From positions 8,866,001 through 8,930,000 of the forward strand of contig NC_134440.1 in the NCBI RefSeq assembly GCF_030867145.1: a stretch of DNA of 64,000 nt, given 5' to 3'. A program made the position numbers and the translations under genes. The stretch comes from Opisthocomus hoazin. Lineage: Eukaryota > Chordata > Aves > Opisthocomiformes > Opisthocomidae. Under the pieces are notes generated by a model that did no database searches, was not told where the DNA came from, and saw only the letters and a program-made list of their open reading frames with translations. This document shows positions 14,739-63,822 of this stretch, in pieces. The number at the start of each line of letters is the position of its first letter. Positions within the stretch are counted from its first letter, which is position 1.

Positions 14739-14769
<31 letters not shown>

Positions 14770-37900: not shown

Positions 37901-40900
37901 TGTGTTGTTCGTGCCCTGTTTGAGGAGGATGGAGCTGGCCAAGCCGGGCACCCCTTTAATATTTAACCCAGGTTTCTGGCTTTGCCTCTAGGAAGGGCTT
38001 GCAAGGAGCAGCCGGATAAACTCTTCCTCCGTTTTGCGCTGCCGTAGCATCAGTTCGGTCCCGCCGGTGCAGCCAGCACGGCAGAGCGGGGCGAGGAAGA
38101 GCCGCGCTGGGCTGCGTGCCCCATGGGACGCAGCTCCTGAGCAGCTCCTGTTACCTTTGGATCGTGAAATTGCTCCTTCCTGCGTCGAAGGGCAAATTTT
38201 GGAGCGTGGGTGTGAGGCTGGCGTCCGCAGGAGCCAGCGGCAGAGCCCTGCGGTGGCTCCCAGCCCTTGCCGCCGCGCTCATCCCAGTTTGCAAAGCTGG
38301 GGAAAGCTCATAGCAGGCACCAGAGTGGGTCGGGGAGGGCGAGGTGGGAGCTGCAGGCACCTCGCTCTGCACGGCCTCGCAGCAGCTGGCACGTGCTTAG
38401 AACGAGTTCACTTTTGACGGCTGCTGGTTCTGCCCTGCCCCGGTGACCGTCGCTTTCCCCACCACGTGCCCCCGGCCATAAACACACCTTCCAGTTGTTG
38501 TCCTAAACTGGGAGAAGCCTGGAAGAACCCTTCTCCACCCACATTCCTCCTCCACGCGTCCCGGCGGCTTCCCCGGCTCCGGGGAGTGGGGCAGCTCTGC
38601 ATGGTCCCCAGCGCTGCCACTGCCCGGCCGGTCGTGCCGAGGGGTGGGTTTGGGCTCCTCCGGCTGCCCCAAGCCGGGAGCGAATCCCTGGGGCAACGCC
38701 AGGCAGCTGGGACGTTTCTTTGATCGCAGCAAGTGCTTGGAGGTGGCCTTCGGATGCTTTCAGCCCGGCTTGTGTGAAAGCCAGAGGGTTTCCCCCTGGG
38801 GAGGGGGGGTCTCGGCGGGTCTCCTGCCTCCCCAGCTCCGTCTGCCTGTCCCCCTCGCCCCCGATTCCCTTCCAACCCACCCGTTGCCATACTGGGACCT
38901 TTGCAGGGAGCAGGGTGGGCACCCACAGAGCTGCCAGCCCCCGGTGGCAGCCCGGGGCAAGCAGCTTTCCAGGTTTTTTGGCGGACGTGTCCGGAGAGGC
39001 CGGTGCCGTCGCCCGTCGGCTCCGCGGATGCGGTGATCGGAGGGGTCGGTGCTGCCGCGGAGCCGGGCTGTGGCACCCAGCGCAGCTGCTGCTCCCTTCT
39101 TCTGGCAGTTTTTTTTTACTTCTTGTCGTTCGTGATGCTGAACGCCCTGGTGACCGCCCCGCGCCGGGTCTGCAGCGTCGGCCGCGTTGGGGCTCTGCTC
39201 TGCGGCTGCTGGCGAGCGCCCGTCGCTGTGCCTGGCCGGGACCGACCCGCCCGAACGTCCTGAGCCGCCCCAGCCCCGGCCGAGTCCCCCCAACCTTCCG
39301 GGGCTCTCCCGTCTGGACTGGCAGCGCTGCCCTTCCTCAGGGAGGAGGAGGAGGAGTGCCGGGCGCGAGCCCTTTGCCGCGCAGCCAGCCGGGCGCTTGT
39401 TTGGCTGCGCCTGCCAGGAGTCGAGCTCTCCCCGCCGGCGTGCGGCTCCTCGGCGACGTTTGCGGCGGGCAGGGACGGCGTCGGGGCTCTGACGGAGCAG
39501 CCTCCGTCCCGGCGGGCTCCCGGCCTTGCTCCGGGCGCCCAGCAGAGCTCGGGGAGCGCGTGGGACGTGGGAGATGGGGTCACTCGCCCTCGTGTGCCGG
39601 GAGCGGACGGCGGCCAAGCTCACGTGGGTTTGATGAAGCGCGTGCGCTGGAGCGGGGGCAATCAGCAGGGCTGGGGATGCGGGGAGCGATGCTGCGCTCG
39701 CGGCCGGAGGCGGCTTGGCGAGAGCTGCGGCGACCGTTCCCGGGGGGGAGCAGGAGCCTTGTGCTGGAGCCCAGCTTGCGCGGGGCCGGGAAGGGGCAGG
39801 GGCTCGCCCCGGGGTTGTGCGAGGCGAGGGCAGAGCTGGTGGCAAAGCCCCAGTCTCCTGCGTCCCAGCCTGCTGGATCGCAGCCCTCGGGTCGGGGCAG
39901 CGGGTGTTTGGGGAGCGGGGAGAGCGGGTGCCCCGCGAGCACCCCTGCCCCGGCTGGCGAGGGCTCAGCCTCCCTGCCCTGGGGTCTCCTCTAACGGGAT
40001 CCTGGGGTGCATTCAGAGGAGTGTGGCCAGCAGGTCAGGGAGGGTCTCCTGCCCCTCTGCTCTGCCCTGGGGAGGCCCCATCTGCAGTGCTGTGTCCAGT
40101 GCTGGGCTCCCCAGTTCCAGAAAGATGAGGAGCTACTGGAGAGAGTCCAGTGGAGGGCTACGAGGATGAAGAGGGGACTGGAGCATCTTTCCTACGAGGA
40201 GAGGCTGAGGGAGCTGGGCTTGTTCAGCCTGGAGAAGAGAAGGCTGAGAGAGGACCTTAGAAATACCTCTAAATATCTGCAGGGTGGGGGTCAGGAGGAC
40301 GGGGCCAGACTCTGTTCAGTGGTGCCCAGCGACAGGACAAGGGGCAACGGGCACAAACTGGAGCAGAGGAAGCTCCAGCTGAACCCGAGGAAGAACTTCT
40401 TCCCTCTGAGGGTGACGGAGCCCTGGCCCAGGCTGCCCAGGGAGGCTGTGGAGTCTCCTTCTCTGGAGATATTCCAGCCCCGCCTGGCCGCGGTGCTGTG
40501 CAGCCTGCTCTGGGTGACCCTGCTTGGGCAGGGGGTTGGGCTGGGTGACCCCAGAGGTCCCTGTCGACCCCCAGCATTCTGTGATTCTGTGGGAGGCGGG
40601 GGGTGCCCGTGCCACCCAGCTCCCCTGTGACCCGGGGCCATCGCTGCCGTTGTTGGGGTGCAGCCGGGGCTGTTTCTCGGGTTTAGAGAATCACGAAGGT
40701 TGGAAAGGAGCTCTCGGACCAACAAGTCCCGCGTTGAGCTGCTGCCTGCGAGGTGTCGACAAACCTGCCGGGTCCAGACGCGCCTTTTCCTCCCCTTCCA
40801 TCTCCAGTGTCCTTTTTTTTCCTTGCCACCTCCTTAAGCACCTTTCGTTTAAACCCGGCTTCCCTTCCCCTCGTCGCCCCGGAAGGTGCCCCCGTGGGTG

Positions 40901-42515
40901 CTCGCCCAGCCCCTCTGCCTTGTCCCAGCGCTGGGGAGCCGGGCTGCAGGCTGCGTCCCGCGGGTCCTCGCGCCGGCGCTGGGACCCTGACGTGTCTGCG
41001 ACGAGCGGGTGCAGCCCCCCAGCACCCGACTGGGAGCCCCTGGCTGCCTCTGGGGCGGGAGGGACCCCTCTCCCCACGGGTCTTTGTGCTGCAGACGCGG
41101 AACCAAAGGGACCTGCTGGTTCCTGCTGGTTCCTGCTGCTTCCTGCTGGTTCCTGCTGGTCCTGTATCTCCCCGTGCTGGGTGGGCAGAGGGTCCCCGCG
41201 AGGTCTCAGCTCTGACGTGTCATTTTATTCCTCTTCTCCTCACTCTGCAGGTTGCAAAATCAAAGCCCTACGCGCCAAGACCAACACGTACATCAAGACG
41301 CCGGTCCGGGGCGAGGAGCCCGTTTTCATCGTGACCGGGAGGAAGGAGGACGTGGAGATGGCGAAAAGGGAGATCCTCTCAGCCGCTGAGCACTTCTCCA
41401 TGATCCGGGCGACGCGCAACAAAGTGAACGGGCTGACGGGAGCGATGCAGGGACCCCCCAACCTGCCAGGACAGACCACCATCCAGGTGAGGGTCCCGTA
41501 CCGGGTGGTGGGGCTGGTGGTGGGGCCCAAGGGAGCAACCATCAAGCGGATCCAGCAGCAGACGCACACCTACATCGTGACGCCCAGCCGGGACAAGGAG
41601 CCCGTCTTCGAGGTGACGGGCATGCCCGAGAACGTCGACCGGGCGAGGGAGGAGATCGAGGCGCACATCACCATGCGGACAGGCTCCTTCGTCGACGTCA
41701 ACGCCGACAACGACTTCCACTCCAACGGCACCGACGTCTGCCTCGACCTGCAGGGCAGCACGACCGGCCTGTGGGCCAAGGCCCCCCACCCCGCCCGCCG
41801 CCCCTCTGCCGCCCTCCGCAACGACAGCCTCAGCTCCCTGGGCAGCGCCTCCACCGAGTCCTACTACAGCGGGCGGGTGGCGGACGCCAGCCCCACCAGT
41901 CCCTACAGCACCAGCAGCGGCTTCACCTTCAGCGAGCCCCCGGCCCCGCTGGGCTCGGAGGAGTGCGACTTCGGCTTCGACTTCTTGGCCCTCGACCTCA
42001 CGACGCCCACCACCATCTGGTCGCCCTTCGAGCGCTCGGGCAACCCCTTGCAGGCCTTCAGCAGCTGCTCCTCCGTCAACGGCTCGCAGAGACGCAACAG
42101 CGGCGCGGCCACGCCGCGCCACTCGCCCACCCTCCCCGAGAGCGGCGGCGCGGTGCTGGACCACCCCTTGGCACGCCGCATCCAGAGCGACCCCGTCAGC
42201 ACCTTGTCCTGGTTGCCCACCCAAGGCTCACTCTCCTCCTTTTCCAACAGCACCGGCTACTCCTCCTCCTCCTCCCTGCCCGGCAGCATCTCGGCCGCCT
42301 CGGGCTCGCCCACCGACTCCAGCAGCTCCGACGGGCACCGCAAGAGCTCCCGCGAGTGCATGGTGTGCTTCGAGAGCGAGGTGATCGCCGCCTTGGTGCC
42401 CTGCGGCCACAACCTCTTCTGCATGGAGTGCGCCATGCGCATCTGCGGCACAGCCGAGCCCGAGTGCCCCGCCTGCCACGCGCCCGCCACGCAAGCCATC
42501 CACATCTTCTCCTAG
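31502..42515 (+). CDS. MEX3D: MEX3D, KH-domain and RING-finger RNA-binding protein
   Basis: There are two coding exons, 31502-31989 and 41251-42515, separated by a 9.26-kb GT-AG intron. The intron falls between GRQ and G of the first KH motif. MEX3 proteins bind mRNA 3'UTRs through two KH domains and act as RING E3 ubiquitin ligases, shuttling between cytoplasm and nucleus. Exon 1 has a low-complexity start and the family signature LDQLSLLGL, then [20 protein letters not shown]. Exon 2 carries the rest of KH1, KH2 with its GPKG loop, Ser-rich linkers, and the C-terminal C3HC4 RING ending QAIHIFS. Coding length is 1753 nt, one base over a whole number of codons. The frame jumps between LDQLSLLGL and KKSVNM (see exon 1). 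Assuming one surplus base, the protein is about 583 aa; human MEX3D is about 650. It is called MEX3D rather than B or C from linkage to MBD3 and the GC-rich N-terminus. Confidence 0.93.
34135..34460 (+). repeat. CR1 LINE 3'-end fragment
   Basis: It starts at the TTACAAATATCTGCAGGGTG block and runs through CTGAGGGTGACGGAGCCC to AGTCTGTGATTCTGA. It is nearly identical to the copies at 37347 and 39996, so the insertion is fairly recent. Confidence 0.95.
36634..36926 (-). repeat. CR1 LINE 3'-end fragment, antisense
   Basis: It opens with a duplicated reversed tail octamer (AGAATCACAGAATCACAGAA) and GGGGTTGGCAGGGACC. It ends near CACTGGGCACCACTGG. Its terminal part reads AAGACCCGCCTGGACAAGG on its own strand, like the copy at 63358, so it is of a slightly different subtype from the majority. 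Confidence 0.95.
37347..37800 (+). repeat. CR1 LINE 3'-end fragment
   Basis: It begins at AGAGAGTCCAGCGCAGGGC within the RT thumb-coding end, and ends CAACATTCTGGGATTCTGTG. It faces the antisense copy at 36634-36926 with a spacer of about 420 bases. Confidence 0.95.
39996..40590 (+). repeat. CR1 LINE 3' fragment, longest in MEX3D intron
   Basis: It begins GGGATCCTGGGGTGCATTCAG and carries the end of the RT reading frame ([20 protein letters not shown]). It finishes at CAGCATTCTGTGATTCTGTG. Confidence 0.95.
40686..40735 (-). repeat. Possible degenerate CR1 terminus
   Basis: GAATCACGAAGGTTGGAAAGG resembles the reversed 3' end of older CR1 subfamilies. Similarity fades within 50 bases, so this is tentative. 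Confidence 0.35.
41111..41164 (+). repeat. 10-bp tandem repeat before MEX3D exon 2
   Basis: About five copies of a CTGCTGGTTC unit, one with a C-for-G change, end 86 bases before the exon 2 acceptor (CTCTGCAG at 41250). Confidence 0.85.
41251..42515 (+). other. MEX3D: MEX3D exon 2: KH1 remainder, KH2, linkers, RING
   Basis: The exon opens with GT completing the last Gly of the KH1 GRQG loop, then [20 protein letters not shown] (41253-41312). KH2 spans about 41478-41675 with the [13 protein letters not shown] loop. A Ser/Thr/Pro-rich linker follows. It contains a mode-1-like 14-3-3 candidate (RIQSDP, about 42179-42196); MEX3B is known to bind 14-3-3 proteins. The RING (about 42355-42480) shows the C3HC4 pattern: [14 protein letters not shown] and CPAC. 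The stop is TAG at 42513. The exon is exceptionally GC-rich but open throughout, and all catalytic cysteines are present. Confidence 0.95.
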
Positions 42516-45270: not shown

Positions 45271-48200
45271 ATGGCCGCGGGGGACCCGTACGTGCAGGTG
45301 AGGGCGTTGGGGGGGTCCCACCCTTTGGGGGGGGTCACACCTCGGGGTGCTGCAGGGGGAGCTGGAGGGGTCTCTCCCCCCGCAGCTGGGGGCGGGGGGG
45401 AGCAAATATCGGCTGGGGGAGCCCTGCCCGCGGGTCTGGGGTCCTTGTTGTAGACTTGGGGGGGGTGGGGGGTGGTCTTGTGCCTCCCCCGGGGGCTCAG
45501 CACCCCGGGTGGCTGCGGGTGCTGTGGTCTGGGTGTCCCCCTGCGTCCCCTCCCCACTGACCCCCGACTTGGTGGCACCCCGTGGGGTGCAGGGTGCCTG
45601 GTGGGCATCAGCCGTGGGCTGCCCGCCCTGCGTGGGTGCTGCCGTGGGCTCCCCGGCAGGCAGGGACCCACGGCTGGGTGGGCGCAGCTCCTCGCGGTGA
45701 GAGCGAGGGTTTGGCCCTGCCTGGGCACCCCTGTGTCCTGCTGCTTGCCCGGCTGCCCTGGCTGCTTTCCTCCCCCGGCTCCTGGCCCGCATCCTTGTCC
45801 CTCTGCTTTGGTCCAGCTCTGCCTTGCGGTCCTGCAGTTTTATGTTGGTGCCCTTGCTTTGTAGTCGTGCCACCTGCTTCTACAGAGTTGAACTCTTGAT
45901 TTATTACTAAAAACAAAGATCAGTATTATCTATTGTCTTACATAAGGAAAGGTCCAATAGAAGTCTTTAAGAGCAGCAGGTCAGGGAGGTTCTCCTGCCC
46001 CTCTGCTCTGCCCTGGGGAGGCCCCATCTGCAGCGCTGTGTCCAGTGCTGGGCTCCCCAGTTCAAGAAAGATGAGGAGCTACTGGAGAGAGTCCAGCGCA
46101 GGGCTGCGAGGATGAGGAGGGGACTGGAGCATCTCTCCTACGAGGAGAGGCTGAGGGAGCTGGGCTTGTTCAGCCTGGAGAAGAGAAGGCTGAGAGGGGA
46201 CCTTCGAAATGTCTCTAAATATCTGCAGGGTGGGGGTCAGGAGGACGGGGCCAGACTCTTTCCAGTGGTGCCCAGCGACAGGACAAGGGGCAACAGGCAC
46301 AAACTGGAGCAGAGGAAGCTCCAGCTGAACCAGAGGAAGAACTTCTTCCCTCTGAGGGTGACGGAGCCCTGGCCCAGGCTGCCCAGGGAGGCTGTGGAGT
46401 CTCCTTCTCTGGAGATATTCCAGCCCCGCCTGGCCGCGGTGCTGTGCAGCTGCTCTGGGTGACCCTGCTTGGGCAGGGGGTTGGGCTGGGTGACCCACAG
46501 AGGGCCCTGCCAGCCCCTGCCATGCTGGGATTCTCACTTCTGCTGCTGTGTATCAAAAACGATTTCTGCAGCTGTGGGGCAGGCCCTAAGCGTGGCCCTG
46601 TGGGGCTGGAGGGTGCTGACATTGCTGCAGAGGTCCAGAATCCCTCAGCACGGCGTGGCTGAGGTGCCAACCTGGGCAAAGCAAGGAGGGTTTCTGTGCC
46701 TGAGGCGTTGTGGGTTGTCCCGTCCCACGTCAGTGGCCAGGCTGGGACGGCAGCAGCTGCCCGACTGACTTAATCAAGGGAGCCCGGTGGTTAACTGCTG
46801 GCCATTGCAGCTTGTCCCTGCCCGAGTGCCAGCCTGGTGCTCCCTTGGAGAGCTGGGGAGCAGCTCCGGGGTGAGCTGGGTGTACTGGCAGGGATGTTCT
46901 TCTGTCCAGCTGTGATTTCAGACCAAAACCCACTGGTGCCTTGCCGGGAAGCTGTACATCGTGCAATTTTCGCTCCCCCCAGCGGCTACTGCTCAGAAAA
47001 GACGATGGCTTCCATGCCGCTCTCCATGTCGGCTGCAAAGTCCGATCGACGGTCAGTCTGCTGCTGGCTCCCCGGACGTGAACCCAAAGTTCGGCCCCTT
47101 CCTTCCCCCTCCCCAGACTTTCAGCCTATTCAGCGCTTGTTTGATCAACTTCAATGATGCGTGAACACGTGTGCTTTGCACGCTGCAGCGTTTGCCGCAA
47201 GCCAAGTTCCTTGGATTCGCAAAATCGGCGAAACCAGGGTGATTTTTTTTCAGGCTCTGGTTTCTAGCGAGGGGCTGGCCCCAGCCCACTGGGCGTGGGA
47301 GCGTGACGTCTTCGAGCCCCGTCGCTGCTCTGCGATAGCTCCCAGAGTTGGTGGAAACGGATACACGCTCCCCTCTCTGCCTGAGAGCGACGCTGCAGCC
47401 ATTAGATTCCGACCTGTCTGTTTTAAGCTCCAGTGTGGCCTCATCTCTGCCTGCTCGGAGCAGCAGGAGGTACCGGCCTGCTGGAAGCAGCCCATGTTCC
47501 CTGTGGTCCAGCAGAAGCTGCCGGGATGGTGTGGGACAGCTCGGCGCAGAGTGGGGTCCCAGGCACTGTGCCGGCAGCCGGAGCTGCGGTTCCCTGGCCC
47601 AAGAGCACGGCTCGCCCTGTGCCAGCTTGGGGCCGGGCGTTCACCCTCTTGCCAGCTGACGGGGTGCCTGCAGCAGAGTTTTGAGGGTTTTTGGCCCGTT
47701 TTTTACCACTCTACCCCTCTGGTGTGCTGCTTAGCGCTTGCTGAGCGTGGGATCCCGTTCCCTGCGAGGTGGCTCCAAAGAGGTTTTTTCCAGGCGTGAG
47801 GAAGGTGATAACGCTCGGGTCTGGGTGCGGAGGGAAGTCGGGGCTCACCGTGCTGCAGAACTCCCGCTGCATCAGCCTCCGCTGTCTGCAGAGGGGAAAC
47901 TGAGGCTGGCAGCAGCCTCCAGCGGGCAGGGAGCCGGGGGCAGGGAGCACCGGTCCCGTGGGTGCCGACTGGTCCCTTGCACAAGGCTCCCCGTGCAGCT
48001 GCCCTCAGGGAGCTGCAAATGGGGGGGGGGGAATGAGAAGGGTACGGGGTATTTTTTCTTCTCGCTGTCCCTGTGCTCTGGCCTGGGGCTGGGGCTGCGG
48101 AGCTGGCGATGGTGTCTGGCTCAGCAGTTGGCCGGGATCTGTACTGCCCGCATCTGCTTTCGAGCCTGGGGCCTCTGCCCAGCCGAACCACGCGGCGGCA

Positions 48201-51200
48201 TCCCCAGCACGCCGGGGTTTCAGCAACACCCGTGCTCAGCATCTTCTGCGTTTGCAGAAAGCTTCCCCGCAGCAGCAGGCGCGACCGCGTCCTCGGCGCG
48301 GGGCAGAGACAGCCCCCTGTGCCGGGGGCAGGAGAGGTGCTGGCCTTCCTGGGGTGGGTGGTGGAGCTGGGGAGGAGCAGGGCTCCAGTAAAGGCACCTT
48401 CCCACACATCTGGAGAGCAGCTGGGTAGGAGCCAAGGGGCTGTGGGGCACCTCGCAGGGTGCTGGGTCCCATGGCTTGCCCCGCTATGGTGATGCTGAGC
48501 ATGGAGCTGACTGTCCTCAGCGAGAACCATGGGGAGGAATGCGATGTTTGGCTTGGAGGCTGGTAGCCAGATGCTTTCCCTGTCTCTTGGCCATGGCTCT
48601 CTGCAGGGATCCCCTCCCTCCCCTGTCCCTGCAGGGTGCCCGGGTGTGGATCCCCGACTGTGTCGAAGTCTGGAGGGTGGCGGAAATAACCAGAGACTAC
48701 ACGGAAGGAGATGCCCATCTCCATCTCCGCCTGGAAGATGGCTCGGTAAGGCTGGAGCTGTGCGGCTCAGCAGGTCCCTGCGGTGCTTGCCACGTCGTGG
48801 GGCATCCCCAGATGGGAGATGCTTCACCTCTGCACCCCCAAAGCAGCCTGAGCTCCTCAGCAGAGTGTGGAGAGGCTCAGACCTTGCCTGGATGAGTCCC
48901 AGCTGGGGTCTGAGCAGGAGCCCAGACCACTGGGGCTGTGTGTGGCTCACCACGCCCTGTGTCCCCTGCCTGCCCGGTGGGGTGGTCCTTGCTGCCTGCT
49001 CCTGCCTGACTTCCCAAAAGGCCTCCGGCTCAGCTCGGCGTGCTGGCTGGGCTGCGATTCCTGGTGACTAACAGCCCACGCGTGGCCTGCAGACGGCATC
49101 CCTCCTGCTGTGCTGCTCCCCACAGACCCACCTGCCTTTGTGGGGCTGGCTGACCCCACTTGGCACTTGTCCTGCTCCATCTCCATCCCCGCAGGCACTG
49201 GCCTACCCCGTTGAGCTCCAGCTGCCGCCTCTCTGCAACCCCGACTGCCTCTCAGGTGCCGATGACCTGGTGGCCCTGAGCTACCTGCATGAGCCGGCCG
49301 TGCTACACTCGCTCCGCCGGCGCTTCGTGGAGGCCAAGGCCATCTACACCTACTGTGGTGAGCCCCATGTGCCCCCTCCTTCTCCCCATCCCGTGCCCCT
49401 TCTCCGCAGCTCCCTGGGACAGGAGCCCCTCCTGCCCCTGCCCGTTGCACAGCCCTCTTCCTCCAGGTATCATCCTCGTCGCTATCAACCCCTACGAGCC
49501 ATTGCCCATCTATGAGGAAGAGGTGATTTACGCCTACAGCGGCCGCGAGATGGGGGACATGGATCCTCACATCTTTGCTTTGGCAGAGGAGGCGTACAAG
49601 CAGATGGTGAGGTGAGAGCATCCCATGGGAGCATCCCTGGGGCTGCAGTGGGGAAGGGCTGAAGCCCCTTCTGGACTGTGGCTTGTTGGTGGAGAGGGGT
49701 CCTGTTGGGCCACAGGCTGTCCCCAGCTGATGTCCTTCTCCGGCAGGTTTGGGAAGAACCAATCCCTCATCATCAGTGGTGAGTCGGGCGCGGGCAAGAC
49801 TGTGTCGGCCAAGTATGCCATGAGATACTTCACCACGGTCGGGGGCTGCCTAGGTGACTCCAGCATGGAGGAGAAGGTGCTGGCCTCCAGCCCTGTCATG
49901 GAGGTGGGTCCGCCTGGGGCCTCAGGTTCTGCATGGGGGTAGCTGGGGTGTCCCTGCAGCCTCTCCCCATGGGCCATATCCCTGATGTGATGCCGTGTCT
50001 GTTCCCTGCTGTAAAATGGGTGGCAGTGACTGAACTTCTCCAGAGCACCTGGAGATCTGGGGCCAGCTAAAACCTCCTGCTGTTCTTCCCTGTCAGGCCT
50101 TTGGGAATGCAAAGACAACCAGGAATGACAACAGTAGCCGCTTTGGGAAGTACATCGAGATCGGCTTCAGCCAAGCACATGTCACAGGGGCCACCATCAA
50201 AACCTACCTGCTGGAGAAGTCCCGTGTCACCTTCCAGGTGGGTCTCTGGGGTGGCATGGGGACAGGGCTGAGCGGGAGCCCCAATCCTCAGGGCAGGAGG
50301 GTGCTCCTTTTGGCCATCCCCCGGGGAAGCAACCTCAGCGCTACTGAGTTGAGCTGGGAGAGGGGAAGGTGTCCCTTGTCCCCAAATCTGGGGCTGCAGG
50401 GGAGCAGGGTAGCCCAAGGTGACCAGGCTTCTTGGTGTTTTTCTTGCTCCTCCACAGGCGAAAGCGGAGAGGAACTATCACATCTTCTACCAGCTCTGTG
50501 CCTCAGCCACCCTGCCTGAGCTCCAGGGCCTGGGTCTCTGTGAGTGCCCCCACGAGCCCCGCGGCACAGCTCGCTGCCTGCCCGTCCCGCGCTGGGCAGC
50601 ACCAGCCCTTCCCACCCTGCCCGGCCACCAGCTGGGTGCTGGAGGAGGCTCTGCTGCTGCTGGGCACCCCGGGAGGGGGTGAGGGGGGTCGGGAGGCCGG
50701 TGGGGCAGGTTGTGCTGGTTCACAGCCTGCTGCATCTCCCTCGCAGGTGGGGCAGAGTCCTTCCACTACACCTGCCAGGGCCAGCGCGCCGCTGCCCAGA
50801 GCCCCGACGACGCAGCCGACTTCGACAGCACGCGGCACGCCTTCTCGCTCCTCGGTACTGTCCTGGCTGGGCACGGGCTGGAGGGCGGGCAGGGCTAGTC
50901 CTCAGGGCTGGCTGTCCCACCGCCCTCACCCCGACGCTGGTGCAGGAGTGCTGGTGCCACACATCCCAGTGCTGGGGAGCCGGGCTATCTGCTGGCCGTT
51001 CCCATCCCTCCAGCGTGTGGGATGCAGGGGGTCAGAGCAGCACGGGGTGGGGGAGCCAGGAGACCCCCTCATGCCTGTGCTGTGCCCGCAGGCGTCCCCG
51101 AGGCCGACCAGCTGGAGCTGTTCAGCATCCTGGCTGCCATCCTGCACCTGGGCAACGTCGTGGTCAGAGGGAGGGACCGCCGTGGGGACGGCTGCTTCGT

Positions 51201-54200
51201 GGAGGTGGGCAAGAGCTTGCTGCCCGCGTCCCGCATCCCAGAGCGGCCCTTGAGCTGTGCTGGCTGCAGGAGCCGCGTCTCGCCAGCACCGCGATGACAG
51301 GGTCTGTCCCTTTGCAGCCTGCCGATGAGGCCCTGGGGCTGTTCTGCGCGCTGCTGGGTGTCGAGGCATCACAGGTGATGCGCTGGCTCTGCCACCGCAA
51401 GCTGGTCACTGCTGGTGAGACCTACCTGAAGCCCCTTTCCAGGCAGCAGGCACTTGACTCCCGGGATGCCCTGGCCAAACATATGTACGGGCAGGTCTTC
51501 AGGTGGATGGTGAGCAGGGTCAACCGTGCCCTGCGGTCGCTGGAGAGCCACCGTACCTCCATTGGCATCCTGGACATTTATGGGTAAGAGCAGCTCCCCT
51601 CTCCTGGGCTGCCTGGAAGAGCGTGGTCCTGCATCAGCTGTGGCTGGGGGTCTACAGCCACCATCTGCTCCAGCTGGGACACGGGGCAGTACCCATCCCT
51701 GTGCCTGGAGCTCGTGGCTGGGTTGGCTCTGCCTGACAGCTGCCTCAGGCAGGTCTCTGCTGCCCACAGGTTTGAGATGTTTGAGCTCAACAGCTTTGAG
51801 CAGTTCTGTATCAACTATGCCAATGAGAAGCTGCAGCAGCTCTTCAACCTGGTGGGTGTCACACAGATGTGTCTCCTTGCTGGGAGCTAGCGAGGGTGGG
51901 CCCCGCACATCTCCGCTGCGTGGTTGCTTTTGGTGCTCACCGCTTTGATTGCGGCTGGTGCTTCAGTCCCTCCAAACCTGGGGCTCTGGGAGGCTACTGG
52001 AGCTGGGCATGGGTTCCCTCCTTTCTCCCAAAGTGCTCCTGCTCCAGGAGAAGGGCTGCCCAGGCATTTTACAGCTACCAAGCCACTGCCTGCAGCCTGC
52101 CTGGTGGCTGGCCACTTTTGTCACCTCCTGGCTTAGGCCTGCTCTGCTCTCCTTGCCCTCCAGCACGTCTTCAAGCTGGAGCAGGAGGAGTATGTGACCG
52201 AGGATATCCCTTGGGTCTTCATTGACTTCTGTGACAACCAGCCATGCATTGAGCTCATCGAGGGCCGGCTTGGCATCCTGGACCTGCTGAATGAGGAGTG
52301 CAAGGTGGGCAAGAGGTGCCAGGAGCAGGCTGCTGTGGCTACCCGCTGCCCCTTCTGACCCATATGCCTTTCAGATGCCCCAAGGCAACGATGGGAGCTG
52401 GACCCAGAAGCTTTACCAGACTCATCTCAGCAGCTCCCACTTCCAGAAACCCAAGAGGCCCACGGATGCTTTTGTTGTGTGCCACTTTGCTGGCAAGGTA
52501 GGGAAAGCTGCGGCAGTACAGCCCTGGGCAGAGAGGGCTCAGCAGTGGCTCTGCCCCAGTGGGCACCCAGCCTGCCCTGTCTCGAGCTGGTGGCATCTCC
52601 TGGAGCCTCTCATTGTCCCGAGTTCCTGTGGCCGCTGTCTGCACGCTCCAAGGCTGGGAAGTTGATCCTGCTGGCTCTGCTGCTGCTTAGTGCTGGGCTG
52701 CAACTCTAACTGAGAGTAAAAATATGGAAACTCTGGCTGTGATGGTTCCCACCAGCAGCCTTGCAGCAGGGTGGGAGCTAGGTAGTGTGGCCACCAGCAG
52801 CTCTGACCCTGCGAGGCCTTCTTCCAAAAGCCTTGAGCTGTGTCCGAGCAGAGCCCCGCACCAAAGCGATCTGGGAAGCTGCGGGCTGATGCTGGTACTT
52901 GGTCTGTCTTCTGCCAGGTGGAATACCAGTGTGATGGGTTTGTGGAGAAGAACAGGGATGCTGTCCCTGAGGAGCTGGTGGGGCTGCTGCGAGCCAGCAA
53001 GGTGAGAGCCACCCCGAGCAGGGGCTGTGGAGGGCAGAGCTTGGGGCTGGGAAGGGCTGATGGTGTAGGAGGTATAAGCTGCGCAGGGTAAACCCCTGTC
53101 TGCCTGCTGGCACAGCCCCATGCAGTGCTGGCAGTGGTCAGGGTGCCCTGAGATGTGGATGGTCCCCACTCTGTTCCTCTGCCTTGGGCTTCCCCATTCT
53201 GGGGGACACCTTGGCCGTGTCCCTGCTGGGAGGGCTGGAGGGTCCTGCGGCTTCCAGGTCTGTAATGCTGTCACTTCTCCCTTCCACCCTGCCTGGCCCT
53301 AGAAGAAGGTAAGGAATGTCTTGGAGGGCTCTCGAGCACACGTGGGAAGGTGCCTGTGGCTTGCATGTAGTTTTTCCTGGGGGAAGCAGCAGGCGGGGGC
53401 ACAGCTGCATCTGGCACATCTGGGCTGTAGCAGGACAGAGGACCATGCATGGGGCTGGCTTCTGTGGAGCCTGTGGTCTGTTGGGACTTTATCTCCTGGT
53501 GGCGATGGCTCTCTGGGTACTGGGTGAGGCTCGCTGCAAGGTCTGCCTGGCGCTCACAGCTCTACTCCGTGCAGTCTGCCCTGCTCGCTGAGCTCTTCCT
53601 GGAGGAAGGGGATGGCCCCATCTCCCTGCAGTCCCGCAGGTCCGGCGGGCCCAGGATGGCTGGTCACCCCAGCCGCCGATCGCTGCCCAGCAGCCAAAAG
53701 AGCAAGAAGTCCATCTCCAGCCAGGTATGGGGCTGGGGGAGAAGAACCACGTCCTGGCCTCGGACAAGCGGGGCTGGGGTACTCCACAAGCCCTAGGATG
53801 CTCCTGCTGGCCCTGACCACGCTTGCCTTGTCCTCTGCAGTTCAAAGCCTCCCTGAAGCGACTGATGGAGATGCTGGGCAGCACCACACCGCACTATGTC
53901 CGCTGCCTCAAACCCAACGATAGCAAGCAGCCCTTTGTGTGAGTGCCTGGCTAGGGAGTCTGGCGGGGATGGGGCTGGGGACATTGGGACCACTGCTGTC
54001 CCTCTGATCCGTGTCCCTCTTGCCCTGGCCCTGCATAGCTTGGATCTCGCCAAGCTGGCTGGGAGCCATTCTAGATCAGCCCCTCTTTGCCCCAGGTTTG
54101 ACTCCCGGCGAGCAGTGGAGCAGCTACGAGCCTGCGGAGTCCTGGAGACCATCCGGATCAGCGCCGCAGGCTACCCCTCCAGGTACCCCCTGCTTCAGCA

Positions 54201-57200
54201 GCACCCTGGGTGCTCCTCCCCACCTCCGGCCACAGCACCTCTGACCCCCTCTGTCCCCCACAGGTGGACATACCAGGAGTTCTTAGAGAGGTACAGGGCT
54301 CTGGTGAGCAGAGAGGAGCTGAGGGGCACCAGTGAGAAGCAAATCTGCAGCCTTGCCCTTGAGAGGCTGCTCCAGGTAAGGGTCTTGCTTAGGACGTGCT
54401 GCTGTGGTATCAGAGTATCCTTTGCAGATGCTTCTCTCCATGTGTGGGTGCTAAGTGGGGTACAGAAATGGATGAAATGGGGAGGAACACGGCCTTCAGG
54501 GAGGTTGGATGGGGAGATCAGTGGCATGAGGAGCATTGCTCGTGGGGGAACCTGGCTGGGGTGTACTTAGTTCCTGGGACTGACTTCCCCCTTGCACTCA
54601 GGACCCCAACAAGTACCAGTGTGGGAAGAGCAAGGTGTTTTTCCGGGCTGGCCAAGTGGCTTACCTGGAGGAGCTGCGGTACCGGCGGCTGAGGGCAGCC
54701 TGCACCCTGCTGCAGAGGCACCTGCGGGGCTGGCTGGCACGGAGGCACTTCGGACGGGCACGAGCCGCAGCAATCTGCCTGCAGCGCTGGGCCCGCGGCA
54801 TGCTGGCCCGGAGGTGAGCGAGGGATGGGGCTCGGAGGGGGCTGCGATGAGCCAAGCCTTGGGAGTTGTCCTGGTTCAGGGCTGGGCTTTGAGCTGGATG
54901 TCCCTGTGGTATGCGCTGGGCTGCAGGCTTTGCCTCTATGGGCTTTGCCCCCCAGCTCTCTGCCCTCCCTGGGGGCTCTGCCCCCCACCTGCCCAGCTCT
55001 CTGCCCTCCCTGCAGACTTGTCAGGATGCTGCGAAGGACCAGGGCTGCTGTGATGCTGCAGAAGACCCTGAGGATGGTTCTGGCCCAGCGCTCCTACCTA
55101 CACACGCGCCAGGCTGTCATCACCATCCAAGCCTTTGCCCGGGGCATGTTTGCCCGGCGTCTTTACCGACAGGTAGGAGCCTGGCAGGGTGGTGGGTGTC
55201 CCAGTCCCACCCAGGAGGGGCTGTGCCACACATGGTGCCCCATCTCTCCCTCCGCAGATGGTGTGGCACCAGAAAGCCGTGGTGATCCAGGCTGCTGTCC
55301 GGGGCTGGTTGGCCCGGACCCACTACGCCCGCCTGCGTGGGACCGTCATCTACCTGCAGTGCTGCTACCGCCGGGTGCGGGCGTGCCGGGAGCTGCGGCG
55401 GCTGCGTGCCGAGGCGCGCTCCGTCGAGCACTACAAGCAGCTGCACAAAGGCATGGAGATCAAGGTGATACAGCTGCAGTGCAGGCTGGATGAGCAGGTG
55501 GGTGCTGGCTTCAGCCCTTTTTGGGGTTCCAGGGTGTGGGGGGCAGCTGCTTATTGCTGACCACTTCTTACTGGTCTCTGTGCAGCCAAAACCATACCTG
55601 CCCTTGTCTCCAGCCATCTCCTGGCCCTGGGGTGGGAGGTGACCCTGCCTGACGTGTCTCCAGGCAAGAGTCATGCATCTGGGTCTTATTCCTGGGTTTT
55701 CAATGCTTCCTATGGATGTGGGGCTGGTGGCCCTGGGGGAGGGCTGGGCACCCTTCTGGGTGCTTGGTTGAGTGCAGCCTTGTAGCACAGTGTTGTGGGC
55801 TGGGAACAGTTCTGACCTGGTGTGTTGTCCCACCACAGATCTGCCATTGCCATCTTGAGTGAGTGTGTCTGCTTCGGCTGCCACCACTCCATTTCTCGGG
55901 GTGCCTGTGGAGGTTGGGGAAAGTAGGGCTGGAAAATCGTGCTGTTGGGGCTGGCCAGGAGATGGGCAATGGGCTGTTAAGCCATGGCAAAGCTCATGTG
56001 TGGCTCAGTGTAGAATGGTGTGTCCTGGAGAGCTGCTCTCCTAGGCCAGAACACTGTTTGATGTGATACCAGAGGCTCAGGGCTCCAAACAAATGGGTGG
56101 GAAACGGGGTATCCAGGCTCACTGCAGAAGGGCAGCCTGAGGCGTGGGCTCTTGTTGATGGGAGATGTGTGGGGACATGCTCCCGGCCACCTGCCTGATG
56201 TGCTCTGCCCGCTGGCCCAAGGCCCAGGAGAAGCAGCAGCTGGTGGAGCAGCTCTCGGGGCTGAACGCTGCCCACACCGAGGAGATGCAACGCCTGCGGG
56301 CTGAGATGCAGCGGCTGCAGGAGGATGTGGCCCGTGATGCCCAGGTCCAGCAGCTGCAGGAGCGGCTGGCCGAGCTGGAGAGGCACAGCATGAAGAGCTG
56401 CCTGGGCCAGGAGGTCGAGGAGCTCAGGCAGGTCAGTCTGTCTATATGGGGGATGCTCTTGCTCTGCTGGGGCTCCACGGGGCTCTCCAGGGACCTGGCA
56501 TCATGCTGTGGTCCTTGGAGGAGACCTCCAGCAGCCGGGGCTGGCCTAGGGCAGGGCTCTGGCTGTACCTGTCCCTCTTCCTGCAGCGCTTGGCAGAGGT
56601 GGAAGCCACGAAGCTGCAGCTGGAGGAGGAGAGGGATGCTCTGATCCAGCGCACGTTGGAGCAGTCACAGGATCTGGATGGTAAAAAGGATCCTCCCATC
56701 CCCTCATCCAATTCCCCTGGTCCTGCAGGCCTGGTGGGTTCCTGCCTGTCCCCTCGCAGTGGGGTCCTGGCTTTGCCTGTCCCCACTCCCTGCTGTGTCT
56801 GTCCCCCCAGAGCAGCACCAGCGTGCGGCGCGGGAGAGCCGGGGGCTGCTGCAGGAGCTGGAGGAGGAGCGGGCACGCTACCAGAGCCTGGTGCAGGAGT
56901 ACGCCCGCCTGGAGCAGGTCTATGAGAACCTGCGGGATGAGGTGGCCTTCCACAGGGTGAGGGGCTGGCAGTGACACAGGGGGGCTCAGGGCAACCCCTC
57001 CCTCGGATCCTCGTGGGGAGCAGGCAGCGCTGGCTGGTCCAGGGCACCCTTCCTGGGGAAGCTCATGTTCTGGGGGATTCCCAAGCCAAGGTATCCTCCT
57101 GAAGCTATCGCTGCTCTGCCCCAGCTGATGTTCAGTGGGCACTTGGGGTGCGGGGCAACGACTTTGTCCTTCTCTCCCCACTCAGCAAAGCACCTTGAGA

Positions 57201-60200
57201 TGGTCCCCTTCGTCAGAGAGCTTCTTGGGCTCTGAGAGCAGCTACCTGTCCTCCATGTCCACAGCTCCTTCACGAGATGGCTCCGACCAGCAGGCTGAGG
57301 CTAGTGGTGAAACTGGTGGGGACTGTGGGGTGGGGGTGACAAATGGCCTGTCCCTTCCGCTGGCTATGGGGACAGCTGTGCCTTGGGGCTCCTGCCAGGG
57401 AGCTGATCTCATCGGGAAGGGGGGTCTGCAGGTGTTCCAGCACTGGTGCCCAGCACCGGCTGCTGTACCAAACCCAGTCTGTGCACCCAGGGGCTGGAGG
57501 AGTGCTGGCAGCCGGTGCCAGAGGGGCTGCAGCCCCAGCCCAGCGGCGAGGTGCTGCAGAATGGCAGTGTGGGCCAGGATCCCTTTGAGAAGGCGTACCT
57601 CCTCCTCCTGGGGCAGCTCAACACCGTCAACGAGGAGCTGGCCCGGACCCGGGAGGAGCTGTGGAGGTCCAAGGCCCCTGTGGAGCCAGAGGACAGGAAA
57701 CTTCTGGACTTCCTTAAGCGCAGGGTGAGCCCCTGCCCAGCTGCCAGGAGTGGGGCCAGAGCTGGGTTGGTGGGGCTGGCCTCACCCTGCTCTCCTCTCC
57801 CTGCAGAACACAGCTGAGATGCTGGGGCTGGGCAGGAGTCCGGAGAAGGCAGCAGCGGATGATGACTTGAAGCACGCGTATGATGCGTTGCAGGTTGAAA
57901 ATAGGTGAGTGTGGTGCCAGGGAGATGGTCCCCAGCTGGGCCGGGCTTCCCCACAATGGGCTGCTGGATCCGTGCTGCTCCTGGGGCTTTGGCTGGTCTT
58001 TTAGCCAGCCATGGCTTGGGCTGCAGCTGCCTGGCCTCTGTAAGGCTGCGGTGCTGGGCAGCTGCATATCCTGAAGCAGCCATCTCCTTACGTGCAGCTG
58101 GGCTGGGAGAGCAAGGGCAGCCTTCCCTTCGCAGCCCAACTGGGTAGGGGGTACCCCTGCCTCTCCTTCCCTCTGCTCCAGAGCACCCAGCTGTGTCTTC
58201 CTGCGTGTCCGGAGCATCCCACCTTGCTCTGAGCAGTGGGTGTGCCTGTGCATGAGCAGACTGGATGTCCTGGGTTCAGCAGCAGCTTCCTAAGAGGGCA
58301 GGGCTGGTGCAGCCTGCTCCTGGGCTGTGCTGTGATGCTCGAGGCGCAGTGCAGCCCGAGGGGAGATGCTCTGTTAGCACAGCTGGGTCTGTACTCTCCC
58401 CAAGGTGCCTGGGCAGGGGGAGAGTTCCCAGCTCTGAGGATTCAGGGTAGAAGTACCTCCCCAGCAGCCTCTCCAGGGGATGCCATGTGGCAGCTGGAGG
58501 AGGTTGGTGCCTCAGTTTCCCCGGGTGCTTGTGTGCAGGCTGTTGGCGAGTCAGCTGCGGGAGGAGAAGCGGCAGCACGAGGAGGAGGTAGAAGGACTGC
58601 ACCTCGACATCTGCTCCCTCAACCAGCTGAGCCAGCAGCAGGCAGCCCTCATCCAGGACCTGCAGCGGCACCAGGGGCAGGAGGGGCTGCAGCACCATGT
58701 CCTGCGGCTCAAGGAGGAGAACTGGGTAAGGGGCAGGAGGGAGGCGGGCAGGACCGGGCTTGGAACTGGCTTTCACCCCCTTGCCACGGGGTGAGCTGCA
58801 GCAGCCCCTTAGGGAGTAATGTGGGGGACCCTGCTGCATCCCCCCAGCTTTGCTCCACTCGGTGGGTGCTGGTGGGGTGTCCAGCTGAGGAAGGCTGGCT
58901 GAGCCCTACCAGAGCTGTCCCTGCCCAGGAGCTGGCCCAGAAGCTGGAGAAACAGGAGAGGACCACACTGAAGCTCCAGAAGAAGCTGAGAGCCTACGCG
59001 AAGCAGATCCAGGAGCTCACAGGCAAGTGCTTGCACGAGAGGGAGGCATGGGCCTGGCTGGAGGGTCACCAGCCTGGTTTGAGGCTGGAGCATCACTCAA
59101 CCTCAACATGAGGTGCAGGGTTCCGTGCAAACAGAGGTGCTGGGGAGCATCTGCTTGGACTGAGCTGAGGGGATCTGGCCTGGGTCCCCAGCCTAGGACA
59201 CAGCAGGATGTGACCTGTGTTCCTCTTCCCCAGTGAACAGAGAGGCTACCAGGCCAGCGCAGGAGTTGGCAGCGTCCTCTGAGGTCCTGTCCCAGTCCCT
59301 TATGGTCCCATCTGTGGCCAGGCTGTCCCAGGCCATGCTAGCGTGGCGGATGGAGGATGAAGGGCGCATTATCAAGGCCATCATCACAGGTAGGGTTTGG
59401 AGAGATGGAGACTACTTACTCTAGCTTGATCCCTTCTAGGGTTTCTTGCCAACCTCTGTGTGAGCTCATCCTTTCAGTGTTGCTGGGGCAGTATCCTGCC
59501 TGGCTCAGGACCAGCTTCCTATAGCTGCCTGGATCCCAACAGTCCTGCTTTCCCCTGCAGACTACAAACCACAGAGCAGCCCTGGGGCTCTCCCAGACCT
59601 GCCAGCCTACGTCCTCTTCCTGTGCATCCGGCATGCGGACCACTGCTGCGACGAGCCGCGGGCCCTCTCGCTGCTGGATGCAGCCATCAATGCCATCAAA
59701 AGGGTCATGAAGGTGCTGGGCTTCGGGGTGTGGGTTGGGCTGAGGAGCAGGAGCTCCACTGGCCAAGGCGAGGTGGCCCTGGGGCAGCAGCCTGGCTCCC
59801 AGGGCACAGCGTGTGCCTGATTGCAGCGTCCAGAGCACCTCCTGGGGTGAGGGGTGCCCCTGAGTGCTGCAGGGTCTAACAGCTCTGTGCCCCTCACCAG
59901 GCTGCAGCTAGCTCCGTGGGGCTCACGGGGTGACCGAGGGGCATGAGGGCTTGCTGCTGTCACCAACCAGAACTCTGCTGACCCCAGGGCTCTCTGTCCC
60001 CACCTGCAGAAACACAGTGATGACTTTGGTGTGGTGGCACTCTGGCTTGCCAACGCCTGCCGGCTCCTGAACTGCCTGCGCCAGTACAGCCAGGACAAGG
60101 TAGGGCTGGGCTGCAGGGGGGCTGCCCCCTCCCTGGGATGGGTGGGAGCTTGGTGGGGACAGGGTTTGTCCCCACCTGGGGCTGCATCCTCTCTGCCCCT

Positions 60201-61937
60201 AGCCCTAGCTAGGGATGTGCTGGGCAGACACCGCTTTGCGCTTGCTTGGGGACCCAGCTGCGTCCCCTGGTACTGCTGGCTCTGACCCAGCCTGTGCCCG
60301 CAGAGCTACTGGCAGTGGAACACGGCGCGGCAGAACGAGCATTGCCTGCAGAATGTGGACCTGCAGAGCTCCTGCCGCAACCTGGATGCCCTGGCTGTCC
60401 AGCTCTACCAGCAGCTCATCCGCACTGCTGAGAAGCACCTCAAACCCATGATTGGTATGGCCTGGGTGTGGGGGCTCGCAGGACGCTCACGGGGCACTGG
60501 TTCAGGGAGGGAACGCTGCTCTTGGCTGTGTGAGCTACCTGCTCTGTCACAGAGGCTGTACCCAGAGTGAGGAAGGTAGGCTCTGAACTGGGGGACCATC
60601 TGCTCCTTGAGCCTCCTGGCTTGGAGGAGGTGGCTGGGGAGCTAAAGTGAGCTCAGCACCATGGGGACCTTGGGCTGCATCCATGGGGAGCTCTATTCCC
60701 CCCTGCCCTGCTTTGCAGCCTCATAGGGCAGGGAGGGCCAGCCCCGGGGCTAGCCTGGGCCAGCTGTCCTGGCGGTGTCATTGGCCCCTGTGTCCCCAAA
60801 TGGGATGCAGAGCAAAGGACCAGTGTGCCGGCTGCTTGAGGCACAACACCATGTCTCTGCGTTGTTATGACGAGCCTTTTCTACCCTTCAGTTCCTGCAA
60901 TGCTGGAGAGCGAGCCCATACAGGGCTTGTCCTCCTCCTGCCCTCCTGGCCACCGCCGGTCCTCGGCAGCCCCTGCCCACACCCTGCCTGAGCTGCTGCA
61001 GCAGCTGGGCTCCTTCCGCGCAGTGCTGGACCACCACGGGCTGGTCCCCAGTGTGGGGCACCAGGCACTGCGCCAGCTCTTCTTCCTCATCAGCGGCACC
61101 ACCCTCAACTACCTGCTGCTGAGAAAGGACACGTGCTCCTGGAGCCGTGGCATCCAGCTCAGGTCAGTCCCTGTGCAGGAGCGGTGCATCTGGGGGGCTG
61201 GGACATGGCCCCTGTGTCCTCTGACCTGGGCTCCCTGGCAGGTACAACATCAGCCAGCTGGAGCAGTGGCTGCGGGCAGAGGGGCTGCAGCAGAGTGGAG
61301 CCCGCGAGGTGCTGGAGCCCCTGGTCCAGGCTGCCCAGCTCTTGCAGGTGAAGAAGGTGACAGAGGAGGATGCTGGAGCTCTCTGCAGCCTGTGCACGGT
61401 GCTGTCACCCCAGCAGGTACTGGGGGGGTTGGAGCTCGCTGCCTGCTGGGCACTCACCCTGTCCTGGGTCTCCTTGGCCTCCCTGGGAGCACTAGGGATG
61501 ACCTGACACTGGGGCGGGGGAGGACCAAGCCATGCCCAGAAGTGTAAGGGCTGGGCACATCCAGACCTGTTCATGGTCCCCATCACCATCTCCTTCAGGT
61601 TGTGAAGATCCTCCGGGCTTACACCCCAGCTGTCGGACTGGAGGAGCGCATCAGCCCCAGCTTCATCAGCAGCGTTGAGGTAAGCAGGACTAGGGATCCA
61701 GTGCTGGGGTGGGGGCTGCTGTTCCACATGGGCCCCCACACTAGGGCAGCGCTGGATGCGAACGCTGTGTCCCCACAGAAACAGTTGCAGGACCAGTTCG
61801 GAGGGGAACCCAGCCAGCTCCTGGTGGACACCAGCCACCTCTTCCCCGTGCACCTGCCCTTCACCGCCTCCCCCCTGCCCTTGGAGGAGCTCCGCATTCC
61901 CGATGCCCTCGGCCTGGCCTTCCTTACCCACCTCTGA
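45271..61937 (+). CDS. Class V unconventional myosin (MYO5B-like heavy chain)
   Basis: I can chain 37 coding exons, listed in the four blocks below, from ATG 45271 to TGA 61935-61937. They total 5241 nt, a whole number of codons, i.e. 1746 aa; human MYO5A/B/C are about 1740-1855. Class V myosins are dimeric, processive actin motors that carry vesicles and organelles. The order is complete: N-terminal SH3-like region, ATPase motor, six IQ motifs, coiled coil and globular cargo-binding tail. Wording in several places is nearer MYO5B than A or C, recalled from family knowledge ([44 protein letters not shown]). The introns are mostly tiny (as short as 81 bases). No disabling mutation was seen, so it looks functional. 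It lies 1.8 kb downstream of MEX3D, co-oriented. A formal symbol is not given because orthology needs a tree. Confidence 0.92.
45298..48634 (+). other. Myosin intron 1
   Basis: At 3.3 kb this is the largest intron of the gene. It holds one CR1 copy (45972-46535). The remainder shows no recognised repeat, exon or RNA gene. Open frames such as 47161-47799 have no family resemblance. Donor is CAG|GTGAGG and acceptor CCTGCAG|GGTGCC. Confidence 0.75.
45972..46535 (+). repeat. CR1 LINE 3' fragment in myosin intron 1
   Basis: It begins AGCAGCAGGTCAGGGAGG and carries the end of the RT frame ([20 protein letters not shown]). It ends GCCATGCTGGGATTCTC. It matches the MEX3D-intron copy at 39996 over its whole length with few differences. 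It is flanked upstream by an AT-rich target-like stretch (about 45895-45970). Confidence 0.95.
54602..55497 (+). other. Myosin V converter end and six-IQ neck, exons 19-21
   Basis: Exons are 54602-54813, 55016-55172 and 55258-55497 (residues about 731-933). After [11 protein letters not shown], six calmodulin/light-chain-binding IQ motifs follow: [65 protein letters not shown] and [13 protein letters not shown]. Six IQs set the long lever arm and roughly 36-nm step known for class V myosins. The third and sixth depart most from the IQxxxRGxxxR consensus. The block ends with [19 protein letters not shown], the conserved junction into the coiled coil. Confidence 0.93.
56222..58725 (+). other. 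Myosin V coiled-coil region, exons 22-28
   Basis: Exons: 56222-56431, 56587-56680, 56811-56956, 57186-57329 (end uncertain), 57491-57724, 57807-57904, 58539-58725 (residues about 934-1304). Heptad-rich Glu/Leu/Gln sequence is interrupted by a Ser-rich spacer ([15 protein letters not shown]). [20 protein letters not shown] aligns with MYO5B by eye. Exon 22 has a second in-frame acceptor six bases downstream (56228). Exon 25 ends in poor donors: only 57330 or 57336 keep the frame with exon 26. The family segment containing FLKLQKRV was not found, so about one exon's worth of coiled coil is missing or unrecognised. This region homodimerises the heavy chain. Confidence 0.75.
58929..61937 (+). other. 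Myosin V globular cargo-binding tail (DIL), exons 29-37
   Basis: Exons: 58929-59022, 59234-59389, 59561-59712, 60010-60099, 60304-60454, 60892-61162, 61242-61416, 61599-61679, 61779-61937 (residues about 1305-1746). Signature stretches are [77 protein letters not shown] and [14 protein letters not shown] at the C-terminus. In the family this dilute-type domain binds Rab GTPases and adaptors such as melanophilin or Rab11-FIP2. The [15 protein letters not shown] wording is close to MYO5B. The intron after exon 29 begins with GC (GCAAGT) rather than GT. The exon 31 donor (GTGCTG) is weak but keeps the expected phase. Confidence 0.92.
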
Positions 61938-62190
61938 GCCCAGGTCTGGCCCTGGGCCACTGCCAGTGCCCCATTGCGGGTGTTTGAACCTCCTGAGGTG
62001 TGGGAAGGCCACGAAGGCTGGGGGTGCAGCACTTCTTATGTGAGCTGTTCTTCTGGGAGGTTGTTTGTTTGTTTATTGGAACTCGGGTACTGTGTTTGTG
62101 GCACAGCCAGGGCCCATGACAGTCCTGCACAGGGGGTTTTGGCCACTTTTTAATCCTTTGAAGTTAATAAAAGTTTTTGCAGAAAACTTC
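61938..62190 (+). other. Myosin V 3'UTR
   Basis: The 3'UTR is short, about 230-250 bases after the TGA. It contains (TTTG)n-like GTTTGTTTGTTTATT near 62062 and ends at a canonical poly(A) signal. Sequence beyond is CR1. Confidence 0.7.
62166..62171 (+). terminator. Myosin V poly(A) signal (AATAAA)
   Basis: GTTAATAAAAG lies 229 bases after the stop. A GT-rich element (GGGGTGGGTGCACTGTGTG) begins about 38 bases downstream, as expected for a cleavage site between. Confidence 0.8.
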
Positions 62191-62689: not shown

Positions 62690-63357
62690 AGGCAAGGTGC
62701 AGGGGTTGCACAGGACGTAAGGCAGAGGTTGGATGGTGCAGCCTTTCCAGTCAGCCATGGTGTGGCTGAGAGCCTGTGGGCGAGGATCAGGGCTGTGGAG
62801 AAGACAGCAGGAGTTGTGGTGGGTGTCTGCTAGGCATGGCCCAGCCGCAATGCCAGCTCTGAGGAGTTCTTCTCTAGGTGACAAGGAGGAATCTCTGGCT
62901 GCGTGGCCCTTGTCCTCAGGGCAGATTTGCACTTGCCAGGCCCCAGCTGGGAATTCCATCCTGCTGTGAGGAGCAGGTCGGGGAAGGGGCTGGAGCTGGT
63001 GGGAGAGGAGTTGATGTGCCAAATACTGAGGGAGCCAGCTAGGAAAGATGCTCTCCTAGACTTGCTCATTGGGAATGGAGTAGGACTGGTGGGAGATGGC
63101 ATGGTCTTGGCCACAGTGCTCATGAAATCATTGACTTTAGGACTGTCAGTGTTGTGTCTGCTGGCAAGAAGGGGTTTTTAAGCATGTTCATAGCAAGTGG
63201 AGGTCTAAAGCAAGCAGTGGAGCAACACTTGTTAACAATGGTGGTGACCTGACAAAGGGAAATGAAGAAAAAGTGAGGGGTTCAATGGTTTTCTTTTTTT
63301 GCCTGAGTCCTTAATAATACCGACAGAGCATGGGCTGCCCGCTGCCCTGAGTCAGAG
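62690..63357 (+). repeat. CR1 LINE endonuclease-region fragment
   Basis: Short broken frames match the C-terminal part of the CR1 apurinic-type endonuclease and the segment before the RT. Seen are VAESLWARIRAVEKTAGVVVGVC near 62750-62830 (positions as read from the frame), DLHLPGPSWEFHPA near 62922-62963, and ILREPARKDALLDLLIGNGVGLVGD near 63020-63095. Stop codons and frame changes make it inactive. It runs into the CR1 3' end at 63358 without the RT core. Confidence 0.75.
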
Positions 63358-63822
63358 GACCCTGGAGAGAGTCCAGCACAGGGCTACAAGGATGATGAGG
63401 GGACTGGAACATCTCTCCTATGAGGAGAGGCTGAGGGAGCTGGGCTTGTTCAGCCTGAAGAAGAGAAGGCTGAGAGGGGACCTAATAAATGCTTATAAAT
63501 ATCTGAAGGGTGGGGGTCAGGAGGATGGGGCCAAGCTCTTTTCAGTGGTGCCCAGCGACAGGACAAGGGGCAATGGGCACAAACTGAAGCAGAGGAAGCT
63601 CCAGCTGAACCCGAGGAAGAACTTCTTCCCTCTGAGGGTGACGGAGCCCTGGCCCAGGCTGCCCAGGGAGGCTGTGGAGTCTCCTTCTCTGGAGATATTC
63701 AAGACCCGCCTGGACAAGGTCCTGTGCAACCTGCTGTAGGTGACCCTGCTTCGGTAGGAGGGTTGGACTGGGTGACCCACAGAGGTCCCTTCCAACCCCT
63801 ACTATTCTGTGATTCTGTGACC
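63358..63822 (+). repeat. CR1 LINE 3'-end fragment
   Basis: It begins ACCCTGGAGAGAGTCCAGC (RT thumb end) and continues with [18 protein letters not shown] coding. It ends CTACTATTCTGTGATTCTGTG, a good two-unit octamer tail. It reads AAGACCCGCCTGGACAAGG, the subtype shared with the antisense copy at 36634. Confidence 0.95.

Follow-up and report, generated by a model that had tools for sequence, protein, structure and literature searches.

Class V myosins of vertebrates have been described as three genes plus teleost duplicates (PMC3621135), and a second report counts three MYO5 paralogs in mammals (PMC3858360). The same report lists Y1721 and Q1755 of human MYO5A as residues needed for Rab11a, and K1708 and K1781 for head-tail autoinhibition (PMC3858360). 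According to another study, MYO5 tails are bound by SPIRE proteins, the Spir site is conserved across MYO5A, B, and C, and Rab11a fails to pull down the MYO5A mutant Q1753R (PMC5021521); we treat Q1753 and Q1755 as one Gln numbered in two ways. According to PMC11231147, birds and reptiles have retained SPIRE3, which mammals and euteleosts have lost. A fourth vertebrate MYO5 is not named among the matches listed in the open-access literature. Whole-word matches to "MYO5D" there concern other subjects, going by titles and the beginnings of abstracts, "myosin Vd" and its variants gave no match in that literature, and the phrase "unconventional myosin-Vb-like" occurs in one salmon paper. A provisional database entry for the gene described below may well exist.

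Here, a 64-kb stretch of the Opisthocomus hoazin genome (contig NC_134440.1; hereafter, the window) was analyzed, in which an intact class V myosin gene lies at 45271-61937 on the plus strand. Our working explanation is that this gene is a fourth class V myosin, the MYO5 of the MEX3D/MBD3 paralogon, and most likely a 2R duplicate with MYO5B that survived in this bird lineage and disappeared toward humans (probability about 0.78).

Structure of the fourth MYO5 gene

The exons were set by homology together with AG/GT sites and then joined, giving a model from genomic sequence alone with 37 coding exons and a CDS of 5112 nt (1703 aa plus stop). No stop codon or frameshift interrupts this CDS, and the window contains no ambiguous base or N. 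All 36 acceptors are AG and 35 of the 36 donors are GT; the remaining one is a GC donor at the provisional junction 25/26 (GCTAGT after 57299, joined to 57491), and the donor at exon 29 (CAA/GTGCTT) is weak. The two other frames of the spliced CDS carry 38 and 49 stops, and none of 200 Markov-1 shuffles was stop-free (mean, 49.3 stops). Pfam matches comprised Myosin_head (838 bits; residues 69-745), DIL (112 bits), and IQ (62 bits). An open frame over 37 exons with head, IQ, and DIL regions bears out the original prediction of a complete, undamaged class V myosin gene. The features of the window are as follows.

11380-11520, 13020-13157, 15886-16014, 16441-16626, and 19053-19136 (+): MBD3 exon pieces (MBD matches and MBD3 peptides)
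41259..42515 (+): last coding exon of MEX3D (KH and RING part), the upstream neighbor
45271..61937 (+): coding span of the fourth MYO5 (37 coding exons, 1703 aa)
45271..45297 (+): first coding exon, which bears the start codon, followed by an intron 1 of 3.3 kb
48635..54813 (+): exons 2-19, encoding the myosin head (P-loop, switch I, switch II, SH1, converter) as well as the first part of the neck (exon model, Pfam, motifs)
54602..55497 (+): exons 19-21, encoding the neck, in which six IQ-like sites occur (exon model, motif patterns, Pfam IQ)
55258..59389 (+): exons 21-30, encoding a stalk that reads as coiled-coil-like and spans about 415 residues from neck to globular tail; junction 25/26 provisional
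59561..61937 (+): exons 31-37, encoding the globular tail for cargo binding, DIL domain included (exon model, Pfam, tail matches)
62166..62171 (+): AATAAA 3' of the stop codon

Open stretches at about 40000-40600, 45970-46550 (within MYO5 intron 1), and 63270-63800 are near-identical and resemble, by eye, the 3' ends of CR1 retrotransposon ORFs.

Intact in the head are the TEDS-site Glu and the P-loop, switch I, switch II, and SH1 motifs. Exon 15, which contains loop 2, has a net charge of +4 over 50 residues. In the neck, six IQ sites were recognized with a loose pattern (protein positions 767, 790, 812, 835, 860, and 883) and four with a strict one; the Pfam IQ cut-off was passed, with two stretches significant independently. 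The coil of the stalk was judged by reading. The globular tail scored 331-409 bits against the sequences of 12 solved MYO5 tails.

MYO5 genes in the same genome

The O. hoazin genome alone was searched (1.48 Gb, 415 contigs) with DIL and myosin searches, and the best candidates were scored. MYO5A (C10:18.917-18.999 Mb) and MYO5C (C10:19.006-19.038 Mb) form a tandem pair, MYO5B has one copy on C41 (88.22-88.35 Mb) and another on C40 (20.31-20.45 Mb), and the fourth MYO5 lies on C27. We regard further DIL matches, on C2 and C15, as other DIL proteins. The head of the hoazin MYO5A scored 1626.8 bits against solved MYO5A (7plt and 1oe9, presumably both chicken MYO5A structures). Against the solved MYO5B tail, those encoded on C41 and C40 show 88.9% and 87.9% identity (280 sites each), so that a separate true MYO5B, anticipated on the contig bearing MEX3C, was indeed found on C41, with a copy on C40. 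These two copies share 96.9% identity over 711 sites, and each contig has MYO5B, MEX3C, MBD2, and ONECUT2-type loci (C41:88.22-90.68 Mb and C40:0.66-20.84 Mb). Such sharing of genes between two contigs, 91 and 50 Mb long, is expected of a Z/W pair; C41 and C40 are probably Z and W, with MYO5B kept on the W.

Gene neighborhood

The predicted order MBD3-MEX3D-MYO5 was recovered entirely on the plus strand (11380-19136, 41259-42515, and 45271-61937). MEX3D does lie upstream of the fourth MYO5, but the distance between its stop codon and the MYO5 start codon is 2755 bp, and the predicted 1.8 kb does not hold unless it was measured from the transcript end. The MBD3 pieces were sought partly with MBD3 peptides, and the first coding exon of MBD3 was not located in the window.

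Genome-wide, MEX3 loci were detected on C27 (the window), C41:88.634 (-), C40:20.844 (-), C10:22.523 (+), and C30:1.439 (+), with a weak match on C22, and MBD matches were detected on C27 (the window), C41:89.77-89.78 (-), and C40:1.56-1.58 (+), with six more on C1, C9, C30, C32, C297, and C369. The minus strand of C41 reads MBD2, MEX3C, MYO5B, agreeing in order and orientation with MBD3, MEX3D, MYO5 on the plus strand of the window; the neighbors of the fourth MYO5 are thus ohnologs of the neighbors of MYO5B (C27 versus C41). On C40, MBD2 lies apart from MEX3C and MYO5B, and on C10, MEX3B is located 3.5 Mb from MYO5A/C. CUT-domain matches, to which we give ONECUT names by inference, were found at C10:18.776 (near MYO5A), C41:90.676, and C40:0.665. 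No CUT-domain match that could represent ONECUT3 was obtained anywhere on C27, and the MEX3D paralogon is therefore incomplete there; likewise, a search for PLK5 as the next neighbor gave no polo-box match on C27. Human 19p13.3 has both ONECUT3 and PLK5 and is not known to have a MYO5.

Collinear MBD-MEX3-MYO5 blocks are the pattern that a block duplication predicts and that a single moved gene would not produce. This collinearity supports the assignment of the gene as the MYO5 member of the MEX3D paralogon.

Phylogenetic position and origin

The IQ-TREE analyses were based on exon-by-exon alignments of eight rows, all from birds or mammals: the fourth MYO5; MYO5A, MYO5C, and the C41 and C40 copies of MYO5B from the same genome; and solved MYO5A, MYO5C, and MYO5B. 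The solved MYO5A and MYO5C rows cover head and tail and that of MYO5B the tail only, so the motor tree is one without mammal MYO5B. The hoazin MYO5B rows are without exons 2, 11, 13, 14, 16-18, 36, and 37, and their exons 3 and 7-9 come from the C41 copy only. The resulting trees split A+C from MYO5B plus the fourth MYO5 and placed the latter outside all bird+mammal A, B, and C clades. Ultrafast bootstrap (UFBoot) support for the A+C split was 86 for the motor (815 columns), 89 for the tail (357 columns), 97 for all columns (1172), and 99 for exons held by all hoazin rows (713 columns); it was 93 under LG+C20+G4 and fell to 61 on 1043 slow sites. Approximately unbiased (AU) tests were run on all columns with Q.plant+G4, on all columns with LG+C20+G4, on the common exons, and on the tail, and P values are given in this order below. 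Placement inside A or inside C was rejected in all four tests (P < 0.001), as was placement inside B (P = 0.0006-0.038). The position outside the three clades, together with these rejections, makes an origin of the fourth lineage before the bird-mammal split well supported. A sister relationship to MYO5B is likely but not firm because support drops on the slow sites and residues held in common with a single clade number 14 for A, 20 for B, and 20 for C. Hence, of the description "nearest MYO5B but distinct," distinctness is confirmed by the AU tests and by the separate MYO5B, and nearness to MYO5B has moderate support from the trees.

The alternative that survives best, although we consider it unlikely, is that the gene is ancient yet not the 2R twin of MYO5B, being instead, for example, paired with MYO5A or MYO5C, or an older or separate duplicate that came to lie beside MEX3D. 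Consistent with this, among the four AU tests of the gene as sister of all A (P = 0.0065, 0.092, 0.0071, and 0.0090) or of all C (P = 0.040, 0.093, 0.016, and 0.107), the one under LG+C20+G4 rejected neither, and the tail alone also left the latter standing; the slow-site support and the single-clade residues, which favor no one clade, point the same way. The tandem arrangement of MYO5A and MYO5C makes a tandem that predates 2R possible. Against it, all three tests with Q.plant+G4 rejected the sister of A, two of them also the sister of C, and the MBD-MEX3-MYO5 blocks of C27 and C41 agree in both order and orientation.

Less probable still is a duplication of MYO5B confined to birds or sauropsids, with the new copy moving to C27 and evolving fast enough to look falsely ancient. 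The highest tail score is indeed that of MYO5B (408.9 bits versus 402.6 for MYO5A and 331.4 for MYO5C), the branch of the fourth MYO5 is long (0.64; from the same node, MYO5B tips measure about 0.17-0.18, MYO5A 0.22, and MYO5C 0.46), and the SH test, which is laxer than AU and rejects few trees, lets those next to or inside MYO5B stand. AU nevertheless rejected the sister of bird MYO5B (P = 0.0006, 0.037, 0.0037, and 0.031) and, in four tests, the sister of the W copy (P at most 0.004), and a moved copy leaves MBD3 and MEX3D in matching order unexplained. A recent origin from the Z or W MYO5B was accordingly rejected.

A decaying copy or expressed pseudogene released from selection is the least probable of the three. 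The gene changes 135 of 629 columns that are invariant in the other rows (21.5%; MYO5B, 18/354; MYO5A, 20/393; MYO5C, 72/454), and two of its donors are atypical, but its frame is open over 5112 nt where shuffles average dozens of stops, its motifs are intact, and under a stricter count its changes fall more on variable columns (residue new to the alignment at 143/349) than on invariant ones (98/449). These counts suggest fast evolution with constraint still visible, and the pseudogene was rejected. A retrocopy was dismissed by the kept introns, and an assembly join by the absence of N in 64 kb and the mirrored block on C41.

Collectively, the 2R reading is preferred: the fourth MYO5 and MYO5B would stem from one large-scale (probably 2R) duplication, after which this bird lineage would have retained the former and the human lineage would have lost it. 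The gene anatomy, the separate lineage, and the mirrored gene blocks are direct observations; the date of the duplication and the loss in mammals are what we infer from them. If the lineage is indeed older than the bird-mammal split, humans would have a reduced MYO5 set, a known paralogon would gain the MYO5 missing from its MEX3D block, and the loss would be a natural experiment on the cargo routes that the motor served and on the paralog that took them over. Bird sequences labeled MYO5B-like may not be MYO5B.

Predicted function

Counting along aligned exons 34-36, all four residues highlighted in the MYO5A reports (the Rab11a Tyr and Gln and the two autoinhibition Lys) are kept in the fourth MYO5. 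At the Rab11 Tyr site so located, the hoazin MYO5B has Phe and MYO5C has Cys. In exon 35 of the hoazin MYO5B, this Phe stands where human MYO5B has a Tyr counted as a Rab11a contact. The intact ATPase head would pull on actin through a six-IQ lever arm, the coiled coil of about 415 residues would form a dimer, and the globular tail would bind cargo. Retention of the four residues makes a Rab11-type, autoinhibited, MYO5B-like actin-based transporter the likeliest mode of action; a dimeric cargo motor of this kind is our best prediction, with motility and cargo read from sequence.

Three KIND-domain loci were found in the genome, on C3, C12, and C1. Since a 70-aa piece of the C1 locus (C1:132864277-132865926) matches solved Spire-1 best (E = 6.5e-9), this locus may be SPIRE3. 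It is a speculative and rather doubtful idea that sauropsids keep a second actin-transport set of fourth MYO5 and SPIRE3 that was lost jointly in mammals.

Comparison with MYO5A, MYO5B, and MYO5C

The fourth MYO5 is a fast-evolving addition to the known class V family, with which it shares its overall layout. With MYO5B (C41/C40; PDB 4lnz, 4j5m, and 4lwz), it further shares the MBD, MEX3, MYO5 neighbor order, the best tail score, and the Rab11 Gln. It differs in being 61.1% identical over 859 sites, compared with 74.9% between hoazin MYO5A and MYO5B, in a shorter loop in tail exon 34, and in having Tyr rather than Phe at the Rab11 site as defined above; its placement inside MYO5B is rejected by AU, and a distinct MYO5B is present. 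MYO5A (C10; chicken/mammal 1oe9, 4zlk, and 4lx1) resembles it in the Rab11 and autoinhibition residues and in exon length, identical in 17 of 26 compared exons, with intron phase imposed when the hoazin exons were sought; identity is 58.9% over 1164 sites, and placement inside MYO5A is rejected. MYO5C (C10; 4zg4 and 4l8t) likewise has a comparatively long branch, whereas its identity to the fourth MYO5 is 54.4% over 1099 sites, placement inside it is rejected most strongly, and it carries Cys at the Rab11 site where the fourth MYO5 has Tyr.
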